Shown here one piece after another: positions 1,922 through 11,412 of a stretch of DNA of 11,443 nucleotides (positions within the stretch are counted from its first letter, which is position 1; each line of letters begins with the position of its first letter). Source of the stretch: Azonexus sp. (lineage in GTDB: Bacteria; Pseudomonadota; Gammaproteobacteria; Burkholderiales; Rhodocyclaceae); the NCBI GenBank assembly GCA_030697085.1, contig JAUYQT010000349.1:1-11443 (forward strand), given 5' to 3'. The notes under the pieces are model-generated. The model worked only from the letters and a program-made list of their open reading frames with translations. It searched no databases and was not told the origin of the DNA. Made by a program: the position numbers and the translations under genes.

Positions 1922-2386
1922 TCAAAAACGCAAACCAAGCGCCTTTTCAACAAACTGAGCGGAAATAACGCCGGAGACTTTCTCTTTCCGGCCAGCACCG
2001 TTGAACAGGAAGGTGCGCGGCAATTCACCCGACCAGTTCGGGTCAATCGCGTAGGCAATGGCGTCCGGATTGTCATTGCCGTAGGCATAGCGCGGACCGG
2101 GCAAGTGATAGCGGTCAAGCAGCGGCCCAAGGATGGCGCTATCAGTTTCGGCCGCCACCGTAATGACCCGTAGCTGCTTGTTGCTTTTGACCAGGGTCGA
2201 CAGCAATTCCAGATTCTTTTTGCAATGACTGCAATCGGAAGACCAAAGGGCAACGATGGTCGGCTGCCGATGACTGGCCGGGTCCAGCAACTGCGCTGCG
2301 GTCAACTTGTTTAAAGGGGTGAAATCAGCCGCTTGCACAGGCAACACCAGCAGGGCAGCGAGAAGTAAGAGCAGGTTTTTTCTCAT
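1922..2386 (-). CDS. Periplasmic thioredoxin-like protein (TlpA/AhpC-TSA type) with CSHC motif
   Basis: This is a 154-residue exported thioredoxin-fold protein. Residues 1-19 form a signal peptide with a basic start, a poly-Leu core and a VQA-A cleavage region. The active site is W48-S-S-D-C52-S-H-C55, a CxxC pair, followed by a TlpA-like pattern and a cis-Pro candidate in ELPRTFLF near the C-terminus. By family knowledge such proteins reduce or exchange disulfides, or deliver reductant or metal in the periplasm. The His inside the CxxC resembles DsbA (CPHC), although overall architecture and length are closer to TlpA. Its ATG overlaps the stop codon of the upstream BNR gene (ATGA), which indicates translational coupling. 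It is the last gene of the tonB-exbB-exbD-receptor operon, so it probably acts on the BNR protein or on the imported ligand. That role is inference. Confidence 0.85.
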   Translation of the reverse strand: MRKNLLLLLAALLVLPVQAADFTPLNKLTAAQLLDPASHRQPTIVALWSSDCSHCKKNLELLSTLVKSNKQLRVITVAAETDSAILGPLLDRYHLPGPRYAYGNDNPDAIAYAIDPNWSGELPRTFLFNGAGRKEKVSGVISAQFVEKALGLRF

Positions 2387-3597
2387 GGCAGGGGAAAGAG
2401 GCGGAAGCCTTCCTTTTCAGTACGCCAGAAGGCAAATAGCGCTTCGCCGCGACGAATCACCCTAGGCTGGTCCGAAGCGCCGTCAGTCGCCGCCAGCGGC
2501 TGCGTGCTGAAGGTTTTACCGCCATCCTCCGAACGCATGCTGTGCAATTGGGTGCGCTCGCCATCGAACTCTTTCCAGACAATCGCCAGTTTGTGGCCAG
2601 CGCTGCCAAGATCGGCGTGGGCCGCGCGCGGGCCGCCTACGGTCAACTGGCCTTCGACCTGCAATTCGCTACCCTGCGCCATCAATCGGCCGTAATGAAC
2701 GCGGCCGGCGCCTTCTTTCTGATTGAACCAGACGGCGTGGCGCACGCCATCCTTGTCCACCACCAGCGACGGGCCGTGATGCGGGCAACCATCGACTCTC
2801 CAACGGTCAAAGGTGGCGCGTTTGACGCTCTCCGGCTTGCCATCCGGCCGCAGACGGGCGATGGCGTGATCGCGTTCGTTCGGTTCAAAGACATGGCGCC
2901 ACATAAAGAGTGGCGCGCCGTCACGGTCGATGGCGCTGGTCAAGCGGCAGCATTCGCAGGAGTGATCGGCCAGCTTGTATTCCGGCTGGAAGCTGCGGCC
3001 GCCGTCGTTGGAGACGGCGGCGTAGATCGCCGCACCGCGATAAGGCGTCTTGCTTGCCTTGGCCGCTTCCAGATCGCGCTTGTCGATCCAGGCCAGCATC
3101 ACCTTGTTGTCCGGCAACACCAGCATGGACTCGAAGCGATGGGTAATCTCGGCTGTGTCCTTATGCACCGTCAGCGGCGGCGAGAAACTCTGCCCATCGT
3201 CAGCCCGCGCCAAACGGATGGCGCCGGTGTTGGGCTTGGGGAACGGATGCGTCCAGGAAACCAGCAGGCCACCATCCGCCGCGAAGGCTATTTTCGGCCG
3301 GTTTTCACCGTCGGCTGAAATTGCCTCCGGTTGGGCGTTGACCGCAGCAGGTGCCGACCAGGTTTTACCTTCGTCGGTACTGCGGTAAAGCATCACATGG
3401 TCGCCCTGCTTCGCCGCTACCAGCAGGGTGCCATCCGGCGAAAAAGTGGCTGATGCGCCAAGCTCCAACCTTGGCGCCTTTGCCTTGGCCATACCCGGCA
3501 TGGCATCGGCGGCGGATGCCGTTGGCGGCAACAGGCCGAAGAGCAACACACTCCCGAGAAGCGCCAGCAGGTTAGTAGTCAATGCGGATCTCGCCAT
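2383..3597 (-). CDS. Secreted BNR/Asp-box (sialidase-fold) protein with CECC cluster
   Basis: This 404-residue exported protein has a likely beta-propeller fold. Residues 1-30 are a signal peptide ending TASAA-D. Four Asp-box-like units are visible: STDEGKTW (73-80), RADDGQSF (131-138), SNDGGRSF (196-203) and SEDGGKTF (356-363). Automatic annotation would probably say exo-alpha-sialidase, but Asp boxes only show the fold. I do not see the sialidase Arg triad or a convincing catalytic site, so the enzyme name is not supported. A Cys cluster, HSCECCR (C214, C216, C217), and CPHH (C271, H273, H274) could bind a metal or be a substrate of the thioredoxin-like protein encoded next. I chose the ATG at 3597 because the signal peptide then begins directly and the overlap with the receptor gene is only 26 nt. 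An upstream in-frame ATG at 3630 would add 11 residues. Confidence 0.8.
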   Translation of the reverse strand: MARSALTTNLLALLGSVLLFGLLPPTASAADAMPGMAKAKAPRLELGASATFSPDGTLLVAAKQGDHVMLYRSTDEGKTWSAPAAVNAQPEAISADGENRPKIAFAADGGLLVSWTHPFPKPNTGAIRLARADDGQSFSPPLTVHKDTAEITHRFESMLVLPDNKVMLAWIDKRDLEAAKASKTPYRGAAIYAAVSNDGGRSFQPEYKLADHSCECCRLTSAIDRDGAPLFMWRHVFEPNERDHAIARLRPDGKPESVKRATFDRWRVDGCPHHGPSLVVDKDGVRHAVWFNQKEGAGRVHYGRLMAQGSELQVEGQLTVGGPRAAHADLGSAGHKLAIVWKEFDGERTQLHSMRSEDGGKTFSTQPLAATDGASDQPRVIRRGEALFAFWRTEKEGFRLFPLP

Positions 3598-5842
3598 GAA
3601 TAGTGCGCTGCGGGTAGGGGTGGAAGGCATAGTATTTTTCGTTGGTCAGGTTATCGACGCCAAAGGCCGCCCTTACTTGCTTGGCGACACGATAAGAAAC
3701 CTTGGCATCAAAAGTCGAGAACTTGCTGTTGCCGCCGTAGGTATCCGGCCATTCGTCGGAGTTGTCCGGGTTGTTGTACTGCTTGCCGCTGTATTTGTAC
3801 CCGAGCGAGGCCGTCCACCGGTCGTCGATGTGATACGCGGCAAACAGGCTGGCTCGCCAATCCGGCACCCGGACCATCCATTTGCCTACAGTCACCGGAT
3901 TCAGCTGATTTTCCAGCACGCGGGAATGGACGTAGGTCATGCTCGCGGTGAGATCGAGTCCGCGCATGACATTGGGTGCCACATAGGCCACTTCAGCCCC
4001 GCGTGCCCGCAGTTTGTCCACGTTCTGGTTGCGTGAGGTATTGGTGTAATCGGTAAAGCTGTAAAGCGCGTCCTCCACCACTTCCTCAAATAGCGAGATG
4101 CGCAAAACGCCGTTGCCAACAGCGCCTTCTGCCGTCAAATCCTTGGCAAAAACCTTCTCCGGCTTCAGATTGGGGTCGCTGATGCTGGTCGTCGAACCCT
4201 TTTTTTCCGTCTGGAACAGTTCCGTCACAGTCGGGAAGCGGAAGGCCTTGCCGAGGGAGGCGCGGAGATTCCAGTCCGGCGTCGCCTGCCAGGCCACGGT
4301 CAGTTTTGGCGAGGTGCCGGACTCTTCACGATCCTTGAAATTGTTCTGGCCCAGCGTCGTCGAATAAATACTGCCATCGCTCGCTTTCCAGCGCTCTTGC
4401 CGAACGCCGGCAATCAGGCGGAAACGCGGCGCAAACTTCCACTCGTCCTGAATGTACAAAGCCTCGGTGCTGGTCCGGCCACGATTGGCTGAGGTTAGCG
4501 CCGTCTTGCTTGCCTCATCCTGCCAGCGGGAAACGCTGTATTGATCACTGACAAATTTATAGGCGTCCTGATGGAAACCCACCGTCAGCGTATGCCCGGC
4601 CTTGCCGCCATCCGGCCGCCAGATGGCACGCAGATCAACATTGTTCCAGCCGGTGTCGTCACCAAACGTCGCCGTCCCGCCACTCGCACTGGCACTGCTC
4701 GCCGAACGACTGATGTCGGTCGGCGTCTGGTACAGCGAGAAGGCCGACTCCACGCGCCAGTCCTGAGAAATACGACTGTCAAAAGTGAGGCCGAAAAGGC
4801 GGTTGACCGTGTTACTGCTGGTCGGCGCGAAGTTGGCGGCGGTCAGCGTATAGCGCTGGCCGTTGATCAGGATGGCGCTACTGTTGGTTGCCGTGGTAAC
4901 CGTCTGGCCGGCGGCATTTTTCAGATAGCTATCGGCGCGACTCTCCGAATCGTTGCGCCACTCACCGAATGTAAAGGCAAGGCGGGTATCGGGCGAAAAG
5001 TCATAAGCGACACGCACCTTGCCAACATTTTGTACGGTGTGATCCATGCCGTAGGCGCCGAGAATGACCCGCTCCGCGCCGGTCGGATCCTTGTCGATGA
5101 CATAACCACTGACCGGCGTGCCGCCCGAACCGCTGGTCGCTTTCGAGGCCGTGGCAAAGCTCATCGGCGGGCCATAGCTGTCGAGGTGCGTCGCCAGCAT
5201 CGAAATGCTCAGATTGCCGCTACGCACCGAGCCGCTGCCCTGCTCCTGATGACCATGGGCAGTCATCTTGGTGTTGTATAGATTGAAGTGCGAGGAGAAG
5301 GCCTGGGCACGGGCATGAACCTCGACGCCTTCTTCCGGCCGCCGGGTCGTCATCAGGATCGTGGCGCCAGCCGAGTTACCGGGCAACATCGCGGAAAATG
5401 GCCCATAAAGGACGTCGACCGTATCGATTTCCTCGCTGCCGACCAGACTCCAGCGCGCCGGGTAACCGAAGCTGTTGCCGAGCAGATTGGAGAGCAGCAG
5501 CCCGTCCGCATAAACCAGTGAGCGGGCGCTCTGCACGGTGCCGGTGGTACGCGCCGCGATGATCGCATTGCGGTCGCCAATGTAGCGTTTGCGAATCTGC
5601 AGGCTGGGCAGGTATTTGACGATGTCTTCGGTATTGACCACATTCATTTGCCGCGCCTGCTCGCCGGTCACTTCGGCTTGCGGCGACGGGTTCTGTACGG
5701 CAACCGTCGGCCGCGCCTGGCGCACGGTCATTCCAGCGAGTTCCTTCGCGGGTTCGTCGGCCACATCGGCGGCCAGCAAAGGGCCAGAGGCGAAAAGGGA
5801 AACGATCGCCAGTGTGAGCGGCTTGAGTCGGTGCAGGTTCAT
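3572..5842 (-). CDS. TonB-dependent outer-membrane receptor, ligand unknown
   Basis: This is a 756-residue outer-membrane gated channel. Residues 1-24 are a signal peptide (LLA-AD). A TonB-box-like stretch is MTVRQA (38-43). The plug domain spans about 50-170 and includes the hallmark segment VDVLYGPFSAMLPGNSAG (142-159). The rest is a 22-strand barrel ending in an aromatic residue, GEIRIDY, as required for BAM-dependent insertion. By family knowledge it imports a ligand such as a siderophore, heme, cobalamin or metal chelate using energy from TonB. The sequence shows no feature that names the ligand. It starts 15 nt after exbD, with AGG about 9 nt before the ATG, and lies upstream of two exported partner genes. 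Residues 195-207 are His/Gln/Ser-rich, a possible extracellular loop. Confidence 0.93.
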   Translation of the reverse strand: MNLHRLKPLTLAIVSLFASGPLLAADVADEPAKELAGMTVRQARPTVAVQNPSPQAEVTGEQARQMNVVNTEDIVKYLPSLQIRKRYIGDRNAIIAARTTGTVQSARSLVYADGLLLSNLLGNSFGYPARWSLVGSEEIDTVDVLYGPFSAMLPGNSAGATILMTTRRPEEGVEVHARAQAFSSHFNLYNTKMTAHGHQEQGSGSVRSGNLSISMLATHLDSYGPPMSFATASKATSGSGGTPVSGYVIDKDPTGAERVILGAYGMDHTVQNVGKVRVAYDFSPDTRLAFTFGEWRNDSESRADSYLKNAAGQTVTTATNSSAILINGQRYTLTAANFAPTSSNTVNRLFGLTFDSRISQDWRVESAFSLYQTPTDISRSASSASASGGTATFGDDTGWNNVDLRAIWRPDGGKAGHTLTVGFHQDAYKFVSDQYSVSRWQDEASKTALTSANRGRTSTEALYIQDEWKFAPRFRLIAGVRQERWKASDGSIYSTTLGQNNFKDREESGTSPKLTVAWQATPDWNLRASLGKAFRFPTVTELFQTEKKGSTTSISDPNLKPEKVFAKDLTAEGAVGNGVLRISLFEEVVEDALYSFTDYTNTSRNQNVDKLRARGAEVAYVAPNVMRGLDLTASMTYVHSRVLENQLNPVTVGKWMVRVPDWRASLFAAYHIDDRWTASLGYKYSGKQYNNPDNSDEWPDTYGGNSKFSTFDAKVSYRVAKQVRAAFGVDNLTNEKYYAFHPYPQRTIHGEIRIDY

Positions 5843-5857
5843 GGAATGCCTAGTGGA

Positions 5858-6268
5858 TCAGGGATTGGGTTGGGTCAAAAAAGCGATCTTCACGATATTG
5901 GCGCGCTGTGCTGCAGCCATCACATCGGCCACCTTCTCGTATTGCACCTTGCGATCAGCCCGCAGGTGCAGCTCGGGCTGCCGAGCGCTGACCGCAGCAA
6001 AGCGGGCATCGAGCGCGTCGCGGTGAATGGCCTCGCCGTTGAGGAAAATCAGGCCGTCGGCATCAATCGCCAGCTGGATGACTTCCGGCTTGTCATCCAG
6101 CTTGGTCGCGGTGACTTGTGGCAGGTCAATCGGCACCGCCTGATGAAAGAGCGGCGCGGTGATGATGAAAATGACCAGCAAAACCAGCATCACATCGACC
6201 AGCGGCGTCGTGTTGATTTCGGCCATCGGCTGGGTAACGCCGCCTTCGTCGAAGCTTCCGAAAGACAT
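5858..6268 (-). CDS. exbD: ExbD/TolR-family proton-motive-force transducer
   Basis: This 136-residue bitopic inner-membrane protein works with ExbB to energise TonB. The N-terminus is followed by the conserved segment MAEINTTPLVDVMLVLLVIF (15-34). D25 is the protonatable Asp at the same position as in Escherichia coli ExbD. One transmembrane helix spans about 25-44, and the rest is periplasmic and ends in LTQPNP. TolR is the alternative, but the adjacent tonB and receptor genes favour ExbD. The ATG lies 2 nt after the exbB stop, which indicates tight coupling. Confidence 0.94.
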   Translation of the reverse strand: MSFGSFDEGGVTQPMAEINTTPLVDVMLVLLVIFIITAPLFHQAVPIDLPQVTATKLDDKPEVIQLAIDADGLIFLNGEAIHRDALDARFAAVSARQPELHLRADRKVQYEKVADVMAAAQRANIVKIAFLTQPNP

Positions 6269-6270
6269 GA

Positions 6271-7005
6271 TCAGGCCTGCCGACTGGCGCGGGCGGCGCC
6301 GATATCGACCAGATTGACGTTGCCGCCGACGCGCACGCCGGTCGTCAGGTAAGCGTGCAGATCATGGGCAAAACCATCGAGCTGCACAGCAACCAGCCGA
6401 TTGGCGCGAGTGAAGGCGTTATAGGCAAGTACCGCCGGAATCGCGACAAACAGGCCGGCGGCGGTCATGATCAGCGCCTCGCCAACCGGGCCGGCGACCT
6501 TGTCGAGTACCACCTGCGTCGCGCCGGAGAGTCCGACCAGCGCGTGATAGATCCCCCAGACCGTACCGAAAAGACCGATAAAGGGTGCGGTCGACCCGAC
6601 AGAAGCGAGAAAAGTAAGACCGCGCTCGATCCGCGATTGCGTATTGACGATGTGCGAACGCATCGAACGGGTCAGAAACTCGCTGGCATTGACCCCGGCA
6701 CCGATTCCCCGTGCGGCGTTTTGCTGATGCGCCTGGGCGGCATGCGCGCTGGTCAGCGCCAGACCGGCGAAGATGCCGGATGGATCGTCGCGGCGCAGCG
6801 ATTCAAGGGCCTCAGGCAATGAATTGGCGCTCCAGAAGCCGGTCAGCGCACGCTCCTGCGAGCGCGAGGCGCGTAGCGTCGACATTACTTTGCCGATGAT
6901 GACTGACCACGAGGCCAGCGATAACAGCGCCAGAATAATGGCGGTGGTGTGGGTAACCAGGTCTCCCTGGTTCCAGAAGTGGGCGAGGCCCATTGGCGAT
7001 TCCAT
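6271..7005 (-). CDS. exbB: ExbB/TolQ-family proton channel subunit
   Basis: This 244-residue inner-membrane protein belongs to the MotA/TolQ/ExbB family. It has three predicted helices at about 20-41, 133-156 and 174-198, with a large cytoplasmic segment between the first two. Conserved motifs are ASVGSTAPFIGLFGTVWGIY (134-153) and TAAGLFVAIPAVLAYN (181-196). T139 and T181 correspond to the Thr residues lining the proton path in family members. It would form a pentamer enclosing an ExbD dimer and hand energy to TonB. The gene starts 12 nt after tonB1 with AGGA about 11 nt upstream of the ATG. A second in-frame ATG four codons on (M5) is a possible alternative start. Confidence 0.94.
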   Translation of the reverse strand: MESPMGLAHFWNQGDLVTHTTAIILALLSLASWSVIIGKVMSTLRASRSQERALTGFWSANSLPEALESLRRDDPSGIFAGLALTSAHAAQAHQQNAARGIGAGVNASEFLTRSMRSHIVNTQSRIERGLTFLASVGSTAPFIGLFGTVWGIYHALVGLSGATQVVLDKVAGPVGEALIMTAAGLFVAIPAVLAYNAFTRANRLVAVQLDGFAHDLHAYLTTGVRVGGNVNLVDIGAARASRQA

Positions 7006-7017
7006 GCGTGGCTTTCC

Positions 7018-7692
7018 TTACTCAAGTGCAAAAGTGATCGGCACAATCACCGAAGATTCAACCGGCTCATCGCCCCGCTTGGCCGGGACAAAACGCCATT
7101 GGGCAACCGCCTCGGCTGCGGCCTTGTCGAGCCGTGCGAAAGTGCTGGATTTTGAAATAGCGACATCCAGTGCCGTGCCCTGCGCACTGACGCGAACTTT
7201 CAATAAAACCTTGCCCTCCTCGGTATTTCGACGAGAAAGCGCGGGATAAACCGGTTTGGGGTTATGCAGATAATCCGCATCAAATCGCGCTGCCACGACG
7301 GCAACAGGCGGTGCGGGCGCCGCCGGGGGTGCTGCAATCGGCTGCACCGTGGGCGTTGGCGGCTGCGGGGCGACGGCAAAACTACTCGGACTGGGCTCTT
7401 TGCTTGTCACTGCCAACACCGGCTGAGCTTGCACCGGTTGCGGCCGACGCACGGGCTTGGGGGGCGGCGGCAAGGGTTTGGGCGGCTCGACTTTCTTTTC
7501 TTCCATCATCGGCAGAAGACGAACGCTGATACTTGGCGGCAACTGGATCAGATCATTCTTGACCGAAAGATAGAGCGCCCCATAGGCGAGCAATAGATGC
7601 AAAGCCACCACAACACCACCATTGACCAGACGCTCGCTCAATGACGGGCGAATTTCGGCACAATCCAGCGGCGGCAAGGCAATCGAAGTCAC
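7018..7692 (-). CDS. tonB: TonB energy-transducing protein 1 (first gene of uptake operon)
   Basis: This 224-residue protein links the ExbBD motor to the outer-membrane receptor. It has one N-terminal transmembrane helix at about 24-43 with H32, which matches the functional His of the TonB anchor. A Pro-rich spacer at about 66-133 contains repeated KP/PP elements such as KPLPPPPKPVRRP. A TonB C-terminal domain at about 135-224 has the YP motif (PVYPALSRR), EEGKVLLKVRV and QWRFVPAKRGDE. The start is a GTG at 7692 preceded by AGGAA at good spacing; an ATG at 7697 in another frame hits a stop at once. It heads the operon, so it is probably dedicated to the receptor downstream. It is a paralogue of the divergent TonB at 7902-8585. 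Confidence 0.93.
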   Translation of the reverse strand: MTSIALPPLDCAEIRPSLSERLVNGGVVVALHLLLAYGALYLSVKNDLIQLPPSISVRLLPMMEEKKVEPPKPLPPPPKPVRRPQPVQAQPVLAVTSKEPSPSSFAVAPQPPTPTVQPIAAPPAAPAPPVAVVAARFDADYLHNPKPVYPALSRRNTEEGKVLLKVRVSAQGTALDVAISKSSTFARLDKAAAEAVAQWRFVPAKRGDEPVESSVIVPITFALE

Positions 7693-7706
7693 AGCATTTC
7701 CTGATT

Positions 7707-7720
7707 TTGATACGGATCAA
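7707..7720. promoter_or_regulatory. Perfect FNR/Anr-type palindrome TTGAT-N4-ATCAA
   Basis: The bases TTGATACGGATCAA match the FNR/Anr/Dnr consensus TTGATnnnnATCAA exactly, and the dyad extends to 6-bp arms TTTGAT/ATCAAA (7706-7721). Its centre lies about 21 nt upstream of the tonB1 GTG, close to the Shine-Dalgarno. For the uptake operon it would therefore overlap the transcription start or early leader, a position typical of repression. For tonB2 the centre is about 188 nt upstream of the ATG, where activation is possible only if there is a long leader. The match is direct observation; binding and the sign of regulation are inference. Confidence 0.6.
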
Positions 7721-7723
7721 ATA

Positions 7724-7737
7724 TTGTTTAAAAACAA
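7724..7737. promoter_or_regulatory. AT-rich inverted repeat TTGTTT-AA-AAACAA
   Basis: Perfect 6-bp arms with a 2-nt spacer lie 3 nt from the FNR-type site, on the side away from tonB1. An overlapping longer pairing ATTGTT/AACAAT (7723-7741) also exists. It may be a second operator or part of the tonB1 promoter. The regulator is not recognised, and chance occurrence in AT-rich DNA is possible. Confidence 0.3.
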
Positions 7738-7901
7738 CAATTTGCGCGGCCGAATTCTAAATGGCGGCGGCAGTTTTAACGATGTGGCAAATCGTCGCAC
7801 CCCAAGTGGCGCAGCCTTGAAATGAGCCTCGTCGGCACAATCAGGTGGCTCGCCCAGCACCCGAAAAATGCGCTGCCTGCTTGAGCAAGTAAAATAGCGA
7901 A

Positions 7902-8585
7902 ATGACCATTGATCGCCTGCACCTCTCGCCAGAAACACCTGAATGGCGGCGGAGCCTTCCCTATCTGTTACTGGCGATTGCCTTGCACATTGCGGTACTT
8001 TTCTACCCAATGACGATCGTCAGCGGCATGCTGAAGACCACACCACCGCTCAGCGCCACGCTCAAAATGGAACAAGCCGCCCCAGCGCCCGTGGTCGAGC
8101 CGGCAAAAGAGCTGCCCTCGCCGCCGCCAGTAGCCAGCAGCTCGCGCCGGGAACGGCCAGTCCCCAAGCCACGTGCCGTCATTGCCATGACGCCGGAACA
8201 GGCAGCCCCCAGCGCCGTTTTTGCCGTACCAACACCCGTCGTTGCCCCGCCACTAGCCGCGCCCGCCGCCCCCGTAGTCACCAACCCTGCACCCACAACA
8301 TTCAGCCCGGCACGCTTTGACGCGGCCTATCTGCATAACCCGCGCCCCAACTACCCAGCCGTTTCCCGCCGCCTGGGTGAAGAAGGCAAAGTGCTGCTCA
8401 GGGTTCTCGTCAGCCCGGATGGCCGGGCGGCTGCGGTCAACCTGGAAAAAAGCAGTAATTTCGAGCGACTCGACGAAGCGGCCCGTCAGGCCGTGGCGCA
8501 ATGGCGCTTTGTGCCGGCCAAGCGCGGCGACGAAACCGTTGAGGCGACCATCATCATTCCGCTGGTCTTTCGACTGGAGGATTGA
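7902..8585 (+). CDS. TonB energy-transducing protein 2, divergent paralogue
   Basis: This is a 227-residue TonB-family protein. The N-terminal anchor helix spans about 19-40 with H29. A Pro/Ala-rich spacer at about 58-134 differs from that of TonB1, which uses KP-rich runs. The C-terminal domain (137-227) contains PNYPAVSRR, EEGKVLLRVLV and QWRFVPAKRGDE. Hand alignment of the 90-residue C-terminal domains gives about 61 identities with TonB1, while the spacers and N-termini have diverged. A local duplication is the simplest reading. It has no exbB/exbD of its own on this strand and would have to use the motor encoded by the divergent operon or one elsewhere. The Shine-Dalgarno before the ATG is weak. 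It converges on the tmRNA gene downstream. Confidence 0.9.
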   Translation: MTIDRLHLSPETPEWRRSLPYLLLAIALHIAVLFYPMTIVSGMLKTTPPLSATLKMEQAAPAPVVEPAKELPSPPPVASSSRRERPVPKPRAVIAMTPEQAAPSAVFAVPTPVVAPPLAAPAAPVVTNPAPTTFSPARFDAAYLHNPRPNYPAVSRRLGEEGKVLLRVLVSPDGRAAAVNLEKSSNFERLDEAARQAVAQWRFVPAKRGDETVEATIIIPLVFRLED

Positions 8586-8627
8586 GTCAGATTAATACGC
8601 GGGATTTTCAGTCAGTAGAATTGACGA

Positions 8628-8645
8628 TGGGGACCGAAGTCCCCA
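8628..8645 (-). terminator. UUCG-capped GC hairpin at 3' end of ssrA
   Basis: TGGGGAC-TTCG-GTCCCCA forms a perfect 7-bp stem with the very stable cUUCGg loop. It is not followed by a T-run on either strand (TCGTCAATTC on the minus side), so it is more likely a structural end of the coding piece or a processing/exonuclease stop than a classical intrinsic terminator. It lies between converging tonB2 and ssrA. Confidence 0.4.
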
Positions 8646-8692
8646 CCGGCTGTCTTGAGTAACAAGGCTTCAGCGGCCCCGGCTAACCGTTT

Positions 8693-8725
8693 TTAGGCGG
8701 CAATAGCGAATTGCTCATCATTGGC
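8693..8725 (-). other. ssrA: tmRNA proteolysis-tag reading frame, ANDEQFAIAA-stop
   Basis: From the resume codon GCC at 8725 the frame reads Ala-Asn-Asp-Glu-Gln-Phe-Ala-Ile-Ala-Ala followed by TAA. The ANDE start matches the SspB-binding part of known tags, and the AA end matches the ClpXP/ClpAP degron (compare ANDENYALAA in Escherichia coli). The middle QF and penultimate I are the variable positions. Confidence 0.95.
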
Positions 8726-8810
8726 AATTATGGATTTGCTTCATTAACGTCGATCGCCTGACGAGTTGCCTACTCACCTTTGCCCGCCCTGTCGAAACCA
8801 GTGCACCCCC

Positions 8811-8835
8811 ATCTAAAAGCACCGTGATGCCCTTA
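8811..8835 (-). other. ssrA: Intervening spacer of permuted tmRNA, forms a hairpin
   Basis: The 25 nt between the encoded CC and the GGGGGTG start of the coding piece can fold as TAAGGGCA / TGCTTTTA, an 8-bp stem with two G-U pairs around a TCACGG loop. It would extend the acceptor stem in the precursor and be removed during maturation, leaving two RNAs. Confidence 0.75.
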
Positions 8836-8940
8836 GGTGGAGGTGAGGGGAATCGAACCCCTGTCCAGAACGCCTCCAGATTGTCGGAATTACAACCATG
8901 GGGAGAATGGTACAGCAGCGTTCGAGGCCTTTCAATCGAA
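8836..8940 (-). ncRNA. ssrA: tmRNA acceptor piece (T-arm and 3' acceptor strand)
   Basis: This first-transcribed piece ends with T-stem/loop AGGGGTTCGATTCCCCT (8862-8846), acceptor strand CACCTCC (8845-8839), discriminator A8838 and CC (8837-8836). The next base is T, so the terminal A of CCA is not encoded and would have to be added by CCA-adding enzyme after processing. The upstream part GGAGGCGTTCTGGAC carries the 3' strand of P2. The 5' boundary near 8940 is a guess; I could not identify a convincing promoter between it and the lipoprotein stop at 8986. Confidence 0.85.
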
Positions 8941-8985
8941 TGGACACAATGGATTGTTGTTTACTTGTAACCAAAGGTAGGCGGT

Positions 8986-9507
8986 TTAATGGCCACACCA
9001 CTGGCGGCGGTCGCCCTGACCAAACGGCAAGGACTGGCGCTCGGTCAGATTCAGCGTGCTGCGCAGCTTGCCGCTGCTCCCGTCGAAAAGTACGTTGAAG
9101 CGGGCGGGCTCATTAAAGTCGTCGCACCAGCGCCATTCCCAGACCAACTCATCGCGCGCTGCAAAATACATCGTCCAATCTGGCCAGGGTGGACCAATGA
9201 TGCGTAACACTTGGTCCTGTGTCATGCCCGGCTGGAGACGGGCAAAGTGCTTTTGGTCGAGGACGTTTTCCCGACTCGTCAAGACTCCTTGTGCGTCGAT
9301 TCGCAGCATATAGGTTTGAAAACCTGCCGGCCCGCGTGGGTAGACGAGCAATTGGCTACCGTCCGGTTCCGCGAAGCGCATGGCTGGCTCGCCCATCAAC
9401 TGAATGACATCCGCGTCGCTGCTGACGCCCAACCCCAAGCCTCGCCCAGCGTAGGAGGCGCAGCCAGCAATCAGAATGGCGCAGATCAGCGTAATGATGT
9501 TTTTCAT
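8986..9507 (-). CDS. Outer-membrane lipoprotein with BamE/SmpA-like repeats
   Basis: This 173-residue lipoprotein has the signal peptide MKNIITLICAILIAGC with lipobox IAGC, so C16 would be lipidated. S18-Y19 follow rather than Asp at +2, which favours sorting to the outer membrane. Two units resemble the SmpA/OmlA (BamE) fold: about 27-92 (SSDADVIQLMGEPAMRF, then DAQGVLTSREN) and about 93-157 (LQPGMTQDQVLRIIGPPW, then DGSSGKLRSTLNL). In each, a short helix and a G-P turn are followed by strands. It is longer than typical BamE (about 110-120 residues), so it is a related lipoprotein and not clearly BamE. It ends about 46 nt upstream of the estimated ssrA 5' end on the same strand. The Shine-Dalgarno is weak (AGG about 10 nt before the ATG). 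The function is unknown. Confidence 0.78.
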   Translation of the reverse strand: MKNIITLICAILIAGCASYAGRGLGLGVSSDADVIQLMGEPAMRFAEPDGSQLLVYPRGPAGFQTYMLRIDAQGVLTSRENVLDQKHFARLQPGMTQDQVLRIIGPPWPDWTMYFAARDELVWEWRWCDDFNEPARFNVLFDGSSGKLRSTLNLTERQSLPFGQGDRRQWCGH

Positions 9508-9549
9508 GGGGTCGCCTGGACTATGTGAGCAAAGGCATTTCGATCTCTT

Positions 9550-10146
9550 TCAAAGATCCCGTTCAGCACTTAATAGCCGCTCGCAATAACGGGCGATCAA
9601 ATCAACCTCCAGGTTGATCTTGCTCCCCGCCTTAAGTTGGTTGAGCGTTGTGTTTTCCAGTGTGTGCGGAATCAGGTTGATGGTAAAAACCTGGCCGCTG
9701 ACTTCGTTGGTGGTCAGGCTTGTTCCGTTGACCGTCACTGAACCCTTGCGTGCAATATATTTGGCGATTTCCTTGGGGGCCAGAATTTCGAGCAGGCGGT
9801 TGTCGCCTATCGGGTCGAATCGCAGCACTTCGCCAACGCCATCAACATGCCCAGAAACCAAGTGGCCGCCGAGCCGGTCGGATAAACGTAGCGCCTTTTC
9901 CATGTTGATTTCACCTGGGGCATCAAGGCCAACGGTGCAGGACAGCGTTTCAGGCGAGACATCGACCATAAAATGATTGCCTTCAGTCGCTACCACGGTC
10001 AGGCAAACGCCATTGCAGGCAATCGAATCGCCCAGCGCGACATCGTCCAGGCTGAGCTGGCCGGCATCGACATGCAGGCGGAAGCCGGCTTCGCGGACGG
10101 TGAGATGCGTGATGCGGCCGACTGCCGCAATAATTCCAGAGAACAT
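9550..10146 (-). CDS. ribE: Riboflavin synthase alpha subunit
   Basis: Riboflavin synthase (EC 2.5.1.9) dismutates two 6,7-dimethyl-8-ribityllumazine molecules to riboflavin and a pyrimidinedione in the cytoplasm, as a homotrimer. The 198 residues contain two lumazine-binding repeats: repeat 1 with MFSGII (1-6), GDSIACNGVCLTV (39-51) and VSPETL (63-68); repeat 2 with GGHLVSGHVDG (93-103), KGSVTVNGTSLT (134-145) and LIPHTLENTT (158-167). The length and the MFSGII start are normal for the family. The frame is open upstream to an ATG at 10227, but those 27 residues do not resemble the family, and an AGG element precedes the ATG at 10146. No ribD, ribBA or ribH neighbour is visible, and the 126-nt gap to the divergent gene shows no FMN-riboswitch-like elements. 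Confidence 0.96.
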   Translation of the reverse strand: MFSGIIAAVGRITHLTVREAGFRLHVDAGQLSLDDVALGDSIACNGVCLTVVATEGNHFMVDVSPETLSCTVGLDAPGEINMEKALRLSDRLGGHLVSGHVDGVGEVLRFDPIGDNRLLEILAPKEIAKYIARKGSVTVNGTSLTTNEVSGQVFTINLIPHTLENTTLNQLKAGSKINLEVDLIARYCERLLSAERDL

Positions 10147-10272
10147 GGTTGAACCTGTGGAGAGCAAAAGGGAAACTTTATCACGCCTGCTTCCGCCGGC
10201 TGATTGCAGAAAATGACAAATGGGCATAAGGTCATGAGCTGCATGTAATTTATCGGCCGAGGGGGGAGAAAA

Positions 10273-11412
10273 GTGAAGAAGACACTGCTTGCGACGCTGT
10301 TTTTGGCAATCACCAGCGGCGCCTTGGCCGACATCACGATTGGCGTCACCCTCTCGCTGACCGGGCCGGCTGCCTCGCTCGGCCTGCCAGAAAAAAACAC
10401 CATCGAGCTGTTACCCAAGGTGATCGCCGGACAGACCGTCAATTACCTCATTCTCGACGATGCTTCCAATCCGGCGACGGCGATCAGCAATACGCAAAAG
10501 CTGATCGGCGAACACCAGGTCGATCTGATCATCGGCTCGACGACGGTTTCAAACTCGCTGGCCATGATCGACCTCGTCGCCGAGAACGAAACGCCGATGA
10601 TCTCCCTGGCCGCCGCCGCCCGCCTCATCGCACCGATGGATGCCCAGCGTCAATGGGTGTTCAAGACAGCGCACGACGACACCCAGATGTCGACGGCGAT
10701 CATCGAGCACATGACCAATCATGGCGTTAAGAGCGCCGCCTATATCGGTTTTTCCGACGCCTATGGCGACACCTGGTGGCAGGCGTTCTCCTGGCTGGCC
10801 GAAGTGCGCCGGATCAAAATGCTCGGCAACGAACGCTTTCACCGCGCCGCTACCGACGTCAGCGAACAGGTACTGAAGCTGCTCGCCACGCAGCCGGATG
10901 CGGTGCTGATTGGCGGCGCCGGCTCGCCGGCAATGCTGCCCGCGCAAGCGCTCAGGGAACACGGATACACCGGCCTGATCTACCAGACGCACGCCGTCGC
11001 CAATGACAATTATCTACGTGCTTGCGGCCCGGCTTGCGAAGGTACCCTACTGCCGAGCAGCCCCTTGCTGGTCGCCGAACAGTTGCCGGCCGACAATCCG
11101 GTAAAGCCGGCGGCGCTGGCCTATATCAAGCAATACCAGGCCGCGTATGGCGCGGGCAGTATCAATGCCTTTGGCAGCTACGCCTGGGATGCCGGATTGT
11201 TGCTCGGTAACGCCGCGCCCATCGCGCTGAAAACAGCACCGCCGGGCAGTCGCGAATTTCGCGTTGCCCTGCGTGATGCGCTGGAAGGCACGACCAATCT
11301 GGCAGCCGCCAATGGCGTCTTCAACATGAGCGCCAACGATCACCTCGGTTTGGACCAGCGCGCCCGCGTCATGGTCACCATTCGGCAAGGCCGCTGGAAA
11401 CTGGTCCACTGA
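10273..11412 (+). CDS. Periplasmic ligand-binding protein, LivK-like (Peripla_BP_6)
   Basis: This is a 379-residue substrate-binding protein of the branched-chain amino acid/amide ABC transporter type. Residues 1-19 are a signal peptide cleaved at ALA-DI. The mature start, ITIGVTLSLTGPAASLG (21-37), is the family hallmark, and YLILDDASNPATA (58-70) matches the following strand-turn. IIGSTTVSNS and PMISLAAAARL complete lobe 1. YIGFSDAYGDTWWQAF lies at the lobe hinge, and FGSYAWDAGLLL lies in the second lobe. Two Cys (CGPAC, about 261-265) may form a disulfide. The start is a GTG at 10273 with GGGGGGAG upstream as Shine-Dalgarno. The ligand is unknown; amino acids, amides or aromatic acids are typical. 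Only 31 nt follow the stop, so the permease and ATPase genes may lie to the right or be absent. Confidence 0.92.
   Translation: MKKTLLATLFLAITSGALADITIGVTLSLTGPAASLGLPEKNTIELLPKVIAGQTVNYLILDDASNPATAISNTQKLIGEHQVDLIIGSTTVSNSLAMIDLVAENETPMISLAAAARLIAPMDAQRQWVFKTAHDDTQMSTAIIEHMTNHGVKSAAYIGFSDAYGDTWWQAFSWLAEVRRIKMLGNERFHRAATDVSEQVLKLLATQPDAVLIGGAGSPAMLPAQALREHGYTGLIYQTHAVANDNYLRACGPACEGTLLPSSPLLVAEQLPADNPVKPAALAYIKQYQAAYGAGSINAFGSYAWDAGLLLGNAAPIALKTAPPGSREFRVALRDALEGTTNLAAANGVFNMSANDHLGLDQRARVMVTIRQGRWKLVH

Follow-up and report, generated by a model that had tools for sequence, protein, structure and literature searches.

Permuted ssrA genes, in which the acceptor half of tmRNA is encoded before its 5' half, are described lineage by lineage in the review PMC3985003. 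According to the same source, the two-piece form is functional in Caulobacter, and permuted precursors are "probably" processed by RNase P and tRNase Z. Two covariance models represent such genes, namely RF01850 (beta_tmRNA) and RF04321 (tmRNA_permuted), the latter being a merged model of 2025 (PMC11915505), while RF00023 represents the standard one-piece gene. Genomic islands that integrate into ssrA also constitute a known class, as stated in PMC11915505 and PMC4131195.

The window, by which we mean the whole analysed stretch of DNA (11,443 nucleotides, the entire contig C34), contains a complete circularly permuted ssrA gene at 8622-8948 on the minus strand. RF01850 matches it end to end (8948-8622, model positions 1-331 of 331, 298.8 bits, E 5e-97), far above the cut-off of 84 bits, RF04321 matches 8897-8693 at 175.9 bits (cut-off 47), and ARAGORN calls a "tmRNA*" (permuted) at 8927-8602 with the tag ANDEQFAIAA. 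RF00023 produced only two sub-threshold fragments at the locus (31 and 23.2 bits, cut-off 47). The pattern of an acceptor 3' strand, 25-55 bases and an acceptor 5' strand with D-loop occurs here once and in none of 200 shuffles. The preliminary description had read the locus as a permuted tmRNA at 8628..8940, and this was right in kind and, within a few bases, in position; the strand, which it did not give, is minus. Three other identities were ruled out: i) a chance match or tRNA fragment, by the RF01850 and RF04321 scores, the ARAGORN call and the shuffles; ii) a one-piece tmRNA, by both RF00023 fragments being below cut-off; and iii) an ssrA pseudogene that has lost a helix, the tag or a terminus, by the intact helices and tag.

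With RF01850 genes the window gene shares gene order, acceptor and T-arm, P2, tag position, 3' hairpins and promoter region. Nothing of note differs: the spacer is 25 nt long, and the final A of CCA is unencoded, as in 21 of the 26 genes that we aligned, in which CC is followed by C or T. The tRNA-like domain and the permuted order are shared with RF04321 as well, although that model omits lineage-specific ends. The functional parts and the type of tag are also those of RF00023, the form found in 12 of the 76 genomes from the host's genus, but the order of the standard gene is unpermuted. The gene is a further member of a described family and is in itself ordinary, in agreement with the preliminary description, which did not regard the class as new. 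The same description expected that a pipeline built on one-piece models could miss the gene; this is true of RF00023, but ARAGORN, RF01850 and RF04321 call the gene whole.

The host assembly (3.42 Mb in 868 contigs, 91.66% complete, 5.65% contamination) contains this single RF01850 match. A search of it for a standard ssrA, which the preliminary description had proposed, returned no RF00023 match over cut-off; with an assembly so fragmented, another ssrA may be absent from it and the binning may be imperfect. A single copy of smpB is present (G000:C854:1664-2092, 180.6 bits against a cut-off of 119.1). Judged from its sequence, the locus is almost certainly a betaproteobacterial-type permuted ssrA that is intact, with the mechanism proposed below.

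Anatomy and proposed working of the gene

Along the minus strand, the promoter-like site is followed by the T-arm with the 3' acceptor strand, a 25-nt spacer, the 5' acceptor strand GGGGGTGCACTGGTTTCGAC, the tag and the 3' hairpins:

8930..8935, minus strand: -35-like element TTGAAA (consensus scan; the RF01850 model extends over this stretch)
8907..8912, minus strand: -10-like element TACCAT (consensus scan)
8836..8900, minus strand: acceptor piece, the tRNA-like 3' half (5' end predicted from the position of the -10 element)
8846..8862, minus strand: T-arm, 5 bp (100% of cells paired and three of five pairs changed on both sides in 26 sequences)
8839..8845, minus strand: 3' strand of the acceptor stem, CACCUCC, including U8841 of G3-U70 (model fit and alignment)
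8811..8835, minus strand: intervening sequence of 25 nt, predicted to be removed
8622..8810, minus strand: coding piece with the acceptor 5' strand (8810-8804), D-loop-like region, tag frame and 3' hairpins
8785..8791, minus strand: P2 strand of the coding piece, 7 bp with 8866-8872 of the acceptor piece
8693..8725, minus strand: tag frame ANDEQFAIAA with stop UAA (ARAGORN)
8627..8646, minus strand: last of two 3' hairpins, 9 bp, terminator-like without a T run

The promoter-like site (TTGAAA-17-TACCAT, 8935-8907) is sigma-70-like, with nine of twelve consensus matches and a spacer of 17 nt. The strand GGGGGTGCACTGGTTTCGAC (GGGGGUG in RNA) pairs with 8845-8839. All seven acceptor pairs are formed, the third of them being G8808-U8841 (G3-U70), so that the 7-bp stem with the alanine G3-U of the preliminary description is borne out; its P2-like helix is upheld across the 26 aligned genes, as are the T-arm and the last 3' hairpin, and its tag is the one read by ARAGORN. 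P2 is continued by further pairs up to 8764/8897. At its 3' end, the acceptor piece has the discriminator A8838 followed by CC (8837-8836); the next base is U, so that the gene does not encode the final A of CCA. No terminator with a T run was called at the 3' end of ssrA. Mature pieces of about 65-70 nt (acceptor, given the predicted 5' end) and up to 189 nt (coding, before 3' trimming) are suggested by this anatomy, in place of the roughly 100 and 180 nt expected earlier.

The structure was examined in an alignment of 26 permuted genes, i.e. the window gene and 25 others that we selected. Of 1297 cells, 93.7% pair, and both partners have changed in 23 of the 50 pairs. In each of the five measures, pairing and covariation were higher than in any of the 500 shuffles or the six slid controls; as this structure was obtained by fitting the Rfam consensus to the window, percentage paired by itself favours the unslid version. 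Across relatives, pairing is lower in helices 6 and 7 (80.8% and 78.3% of cells). Five of the seven acceptor pairs are invariant, which speaks neither for nor against them, and G3-U70 is kept in all 26 sequences, the window included. The folding z of the gene is -3.59. In an unconstrained fold of the uncut precursor the acceptor stem was formed, and the strands of the T-arm were paired elsewhere.

From this anatomy and from what is known of permuted tmRNA, we infer how the gene would be transcribed, cleaved, charged and used in tagging. A single transcript would start from the sigma-70-like promoter just upstream of the acceptor half. RNase P would cut at G8810, the 5' terminus, the spacer would be cleared from the acceptor end by further enzymes of tRNA processing, probably tRNase Z, and CCA would be completed. 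The two RNAs, presumably held together via the acceptor stem and P2, would be charged with alanine via G3-U70, SmpB would help to bring them into stalled ribosomes, and ANDEQFAIAA would be appended as a degradation tag.

Distribution of the two forms and their neighbourhood

In an order-wide sample, four of 150 genomes, the host included, reached the RF01850 cut-off. In a sample of 297 genomes from the host's family, RF01850 was over cut-off in 114 genomes and RF00023 in 159; counted by hand, two genomes (G161 and G271) contained both forms and 26 neither. Among the 68 genera of this sample, both forms occurred in 13, only the permuted one in 21, only the standard one in 31 and neither in three. 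The host's own genus (Azonexus/Dechloromonas, 76 genomes) comprised 57 permuted and 12 standard genomes, seven with neither form and none with both (E at most 1e-20). Single-contig genomes were found on both sides (G427, G258 and G443 permuted; G293, G368 and G448 standard). As the genus holds both forms, these counts suggest that the form of ssrA is no reliable marker within it, and the expectation that the gene would be taxonomically informative fails at this level.

The neighbours of ssrA that served for comparison are located in the window as follows:

7902..8585, plus strand: second tonB (tonB2; TonB_C PF03544 and synteny), convergent with ssrA, a neighbourhood anchor in the genus
8986..9507, minus strand: BamE-domain gene (PF04355 and synteny), upstream of ssrA on the same strand
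9550..10227, minus strand: riboflavin synthase-like gene (ribE; Lum_binding PF00677, scanned over 9550-10146, and synteny)

In the window, ribE thus has the direction of ssrA. A TonB system occupies 1922-8585, with a TonB-dependent receptor, ExbD, ExbB, TonB and the second tonB that faces ssrA; the same region also encodes a BNR-repeat protein and a small protein that has no Pfam match.

We read the neighbourhood, up to 7 kb per side, in 59 of the 69 ssrA-bearing genomes (47 permuted, 12 standard); ten permuted genomes, several with ssrA near a contig end, were left out. ARAGORN found ssrA in 56 of these 59 loci (45 permuted, 11 standard), the uncalled G470, G455 and G478 being absent from the orientation count. 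The orientation of the window, with ssrA on the strand of ribE and convergent with tonB2, was present in 36 of 45 permuted loci and in no standard one, and the opposite orientation in four permuted (G496, G465, G490 and G443) and seven standard loci, while the anchors ribE/tonB2 were missing from five permuted and four standard loci. Form and orientation are associated (Fisher p 5e-6, a statistic that ignores relatedness). A tonB2 within some 600 bases of ssrA was located on one side in 23 permuted loci and on the other side in two permuted and five standard loci. Wherever these anchors could be located, permuted and standard genes share one tonB/ribE neighbourhood, in most cases with opposite strands. 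As for G368 and G460, "same neighbourhood" is a safer term than "same site", since other genes lie between the anchors and the standard ssrA. Two ARAGORN calls were taken as false, namely a one-piece call in L099, which overlaps a permuted call, and a call in G456 with an odd tag, which marks tonB; the G456 row was dropped from the ssrA trees and kept in the synteny count. This alternation of both forms within one genus and one neighbourhood contrasts with the lineage-by-lineage picture of the literature consulted.

Genes for rpoB were found in 60 of the 76 genomes, of which 58 were used (43 permuted, 10 standard, five with neither form) and two with partial rpoB left out. On the resulting tree the form of ssrA needs six changes, five of them forced by well supported branches. 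Shuffled forms needed 9.3 changes on average, and one of 500 shuffles was as low as six, so the form is clustered, yet not confined to one clade. This first tree contained two branches near 5 changes per column. A 49-row tree, omitting four permuted rows behind long branches and the five rows of no known form, again required six changes and rejected a single standard clade (p-AU 0.00018), with G488 still a long row and the AU test assuming a group named before the tree was seen. On the tree of standard-form ssrA, which includes three long rows, one probably a false call, the 12 standard genes belong to two lineages. In the tree of 131 permuted genes, long branches meet and five Gallionellaceae-type rows are placed oddly inside Azonexus; for this reason, only its accessory-gene split was used, and with care.

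An island within ssrA and the possible origin of the patchwork

In two genomes, G505 (uncultured Dechloromonas, putative) and G443 (putative Dechloromonas agitata is5), an island interrupts the native permuted ssrA at its T-loop (L286:6932-7657 and L328:1-9527 in G505, L317 and L329 in G443; L212 and L163 are the corresponding records). On the first side, the native gene ends with ...CTGGACAGGGGTTC and is joined to the island end TTATCTAAGG; on the other side, it resumes after CCTTAGATAAG with GGTTCGATTCCCC (AGTTC in G443). In an uninterrupted relative, G463, the sequence on either side is about 90% identical to that of G505 as far as the split point, and the G505 insert measures about 9.7 kb. 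The island encodes a tyrosine recombinase (PF00589, 66.5 bits, with a weak GmtY match below the GmtY cut-off), a DUF6262 protein over the Pfam cut-off (its VPA1267 match is below the respective cut-off), a RecD2-like helicase (below the RecD2 cut-off) and proteins of 1162 and 213 aa without family; the cargo differs between G505 and G443. Near the other end, on the opposite strand, there is an intact permuted ssrA of the island's own (RF01850, 249 bits) with a promoter-like stretch.

Integrating islands usually restore their target via a short gene fragment. The island of G505 and G443 resembles those that integrate into ssrA in its tyrosine recombinase and its placement in the T-loop, but it differs from them in that the native gene is left in two pieces and a separate, complete permuted ssrA, divergently oriented, is carried along. 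Replacement of ssrA by ssrA-carrying islands was not found among the literature matches listed (titles and starts of abstracts), and an earlier description, e.g. in Sharkady and Williams 2004 or Mao et al. 2009, is possible.

Between the two genomes, two shared blocks of the island are 97.4% and 98.7% identical. Of the chromosomal flanks, the parts that align are 86-90% identical next to ribE and 81% next to tonB; apart from the ssrA remnant, no more than 1.8 kb of the 7.2 kb towards tonB can be aligned. The two native ssrA remnants are 95% and 93% identical. Since the island is 97-99% identical and the aligned flanks 81-90%, a movement of the island separate from its surroundings is suggested by these sequences, and the arrangement can be read as the displacement of one ssrA by another, caught at a single moment.

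How the patchwork of forms arose can be explained in two ways. The first, which we consider reasonably probable, is that ssrA was replaced repeatedly at this site by incoming genes, brought either by ssrA-carrying islands or by homologous recombination. Repeated replacement is suggested by the six form changes on the rpoB tree with the rejected single standard clade, by the islands of G505 and G443, which carry a permuted ssrA of their own into the resident gene at its T-loop, by the difference in identity between island and flanks, and by the four permuted genes in the standard-type orientation. However, the island exchanges permuted for permuted both times, without a change of form, and none of the island genes was found next to a standard ssrA. 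Moreover, this vehicle was seen in two genomes only, since island genes occurred at no ssrA locus of the other genomes examined (many with 1.5-kb flanks only) and the recombinase, searched at E 1e-60, had a single relative in the 297 family genomes, a distant one without ssrA in 19.9 kb. No copy of the recombinase was found on plasmids. In the stretch with the distant relative (L353 of G429), three island proteins, among them the recombinase, have distant counterparts at 30-42% identity, encoded at 5318-10723; no Rfam match or tRNA gene was detected in its 19.9 kb, and no ssrA of either form is listed for G429.

More tentatively, the tonB-ribE site might be a hotspot of ssrA replacement in the genus, with self-sufficient islands as one vehicle and the host becoming dependent on the island. 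If so, the island's cut at the T-loop should abolish the resident permuted ssrA, the island would supply a complete one, and the host would depend on it for ribosome rescue. Repeated rounds of island integration or recombination would then explain why the two forms alternate from one close relative to another while occupying opposite strands of a single neighbourhood. The comparison within the genus is of more consequence than the gene itself: it provides close species pairs, some of them cultured, that allow testing of what the two-piece form changes, and an example of the way in which an RNA gene of importance can be exchanged.

The second explanation, an ancestor with standard and permuted ssrA side by side from which each lineage lost one, appears unlikely. 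It would agree with the use of one neighbourhood on opposite strands and with two stretches (L160 and L184; Gallionellaceae, Sideroxyarcus) in which both forms are located about 280 bases apart. On the other hand, none of the 76 genomes keeps both forms, the standard genes of Azonexus fall into two lineages, and no remnant of the other form was detected at E 1e-3 around 11 standard and 45 permuted loci, although matches to the false G456 row, which mark tonB, could hide a remnant overlapping tonB. The only second copies around these loci are the permuted ones of G505 and G443. As for the window gene itself, it is very improbable that it is a decayed relic in a cell relying on another ssrA absent from the assembly: the assembly is incomplete and in 868 contigs, and two relatives do have a broken native permuted ssrA at the equivalent site, but helices and tag are intact here, the score of 298.8 bits is among the higher ones of the family sample, whose best is 335.9, and the two forms coincide in none of the 76 genomes of the genus.

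Other permuted genes

A pattern scan of genome contigs gave 65 stretches. Eleven of them, picked for odd tags, match RF04321 at 97-151 bits and come from Stenotrophomonas (three), Herbaspirillum (three), Noviherbaspirillum (two), Herminiimonas, Aquabacterium and one proteobacterium (L176, L189, L208, L182, L211, L199, L200, L203, L151, L162 and L168). Their ARAGORN tags are unlike ANDExFAxAA, and some may be wrong calls. A full standard ssrA at 189-219 bits is present in all eleven genomes; RF00023 was over cut-off in 16 of 18 genomes searched, in two of these weakly (68.3 and 56.5 bits).

RF01850 matches were also present on plasmids, with no annotation beneath them: Cupriavidus taiwanensis NZ_CP016951 (L245, 287 bits) and Pandoraea oxalativorans pPO70-1 (L247, 131.6 bits), both typed conjugative, and Cupriavidus sp. 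USMAHM13 (L246, 231.7 bits), typed non-mobilizable. A literature search by phrase gave no papers on plasmid-borne or second tmRNA genes. Four records of Gallionellaceae and kin (L160, L184, L197 and L198) contain standard and permuted tmRNA matches each, on the same strand in the closely spaced pairs of L160 and L184 and separated by some 2 kb in L197 and some 5 kb in L198; the standard matches are cut by the stretch end in L160, L184 and L197 and weak in L198. In L287 (G455), the permuted ssrA at 6958-7249 is without about 39 bases around the resume codon and ARAGORN is silent, which may reflect decay, a variant or an assembly error.

Spacers were compared in 140 permuted parses, some genes being parsed twice. 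Counted from CC, 135 had spacers of 24-50 nt and four of 4-5 nt, the one at 72 nt being a parse in a standard locus. In 24 short-spacer genes (L354-L373, L315, L324, L326 and L327), 20 of which were picked for short length, the spacer is 4-7 nt long and its first base is A in all 24, so that CCA is complete. For these genes, one RNase P cut followed by short trimming would probably be enough.
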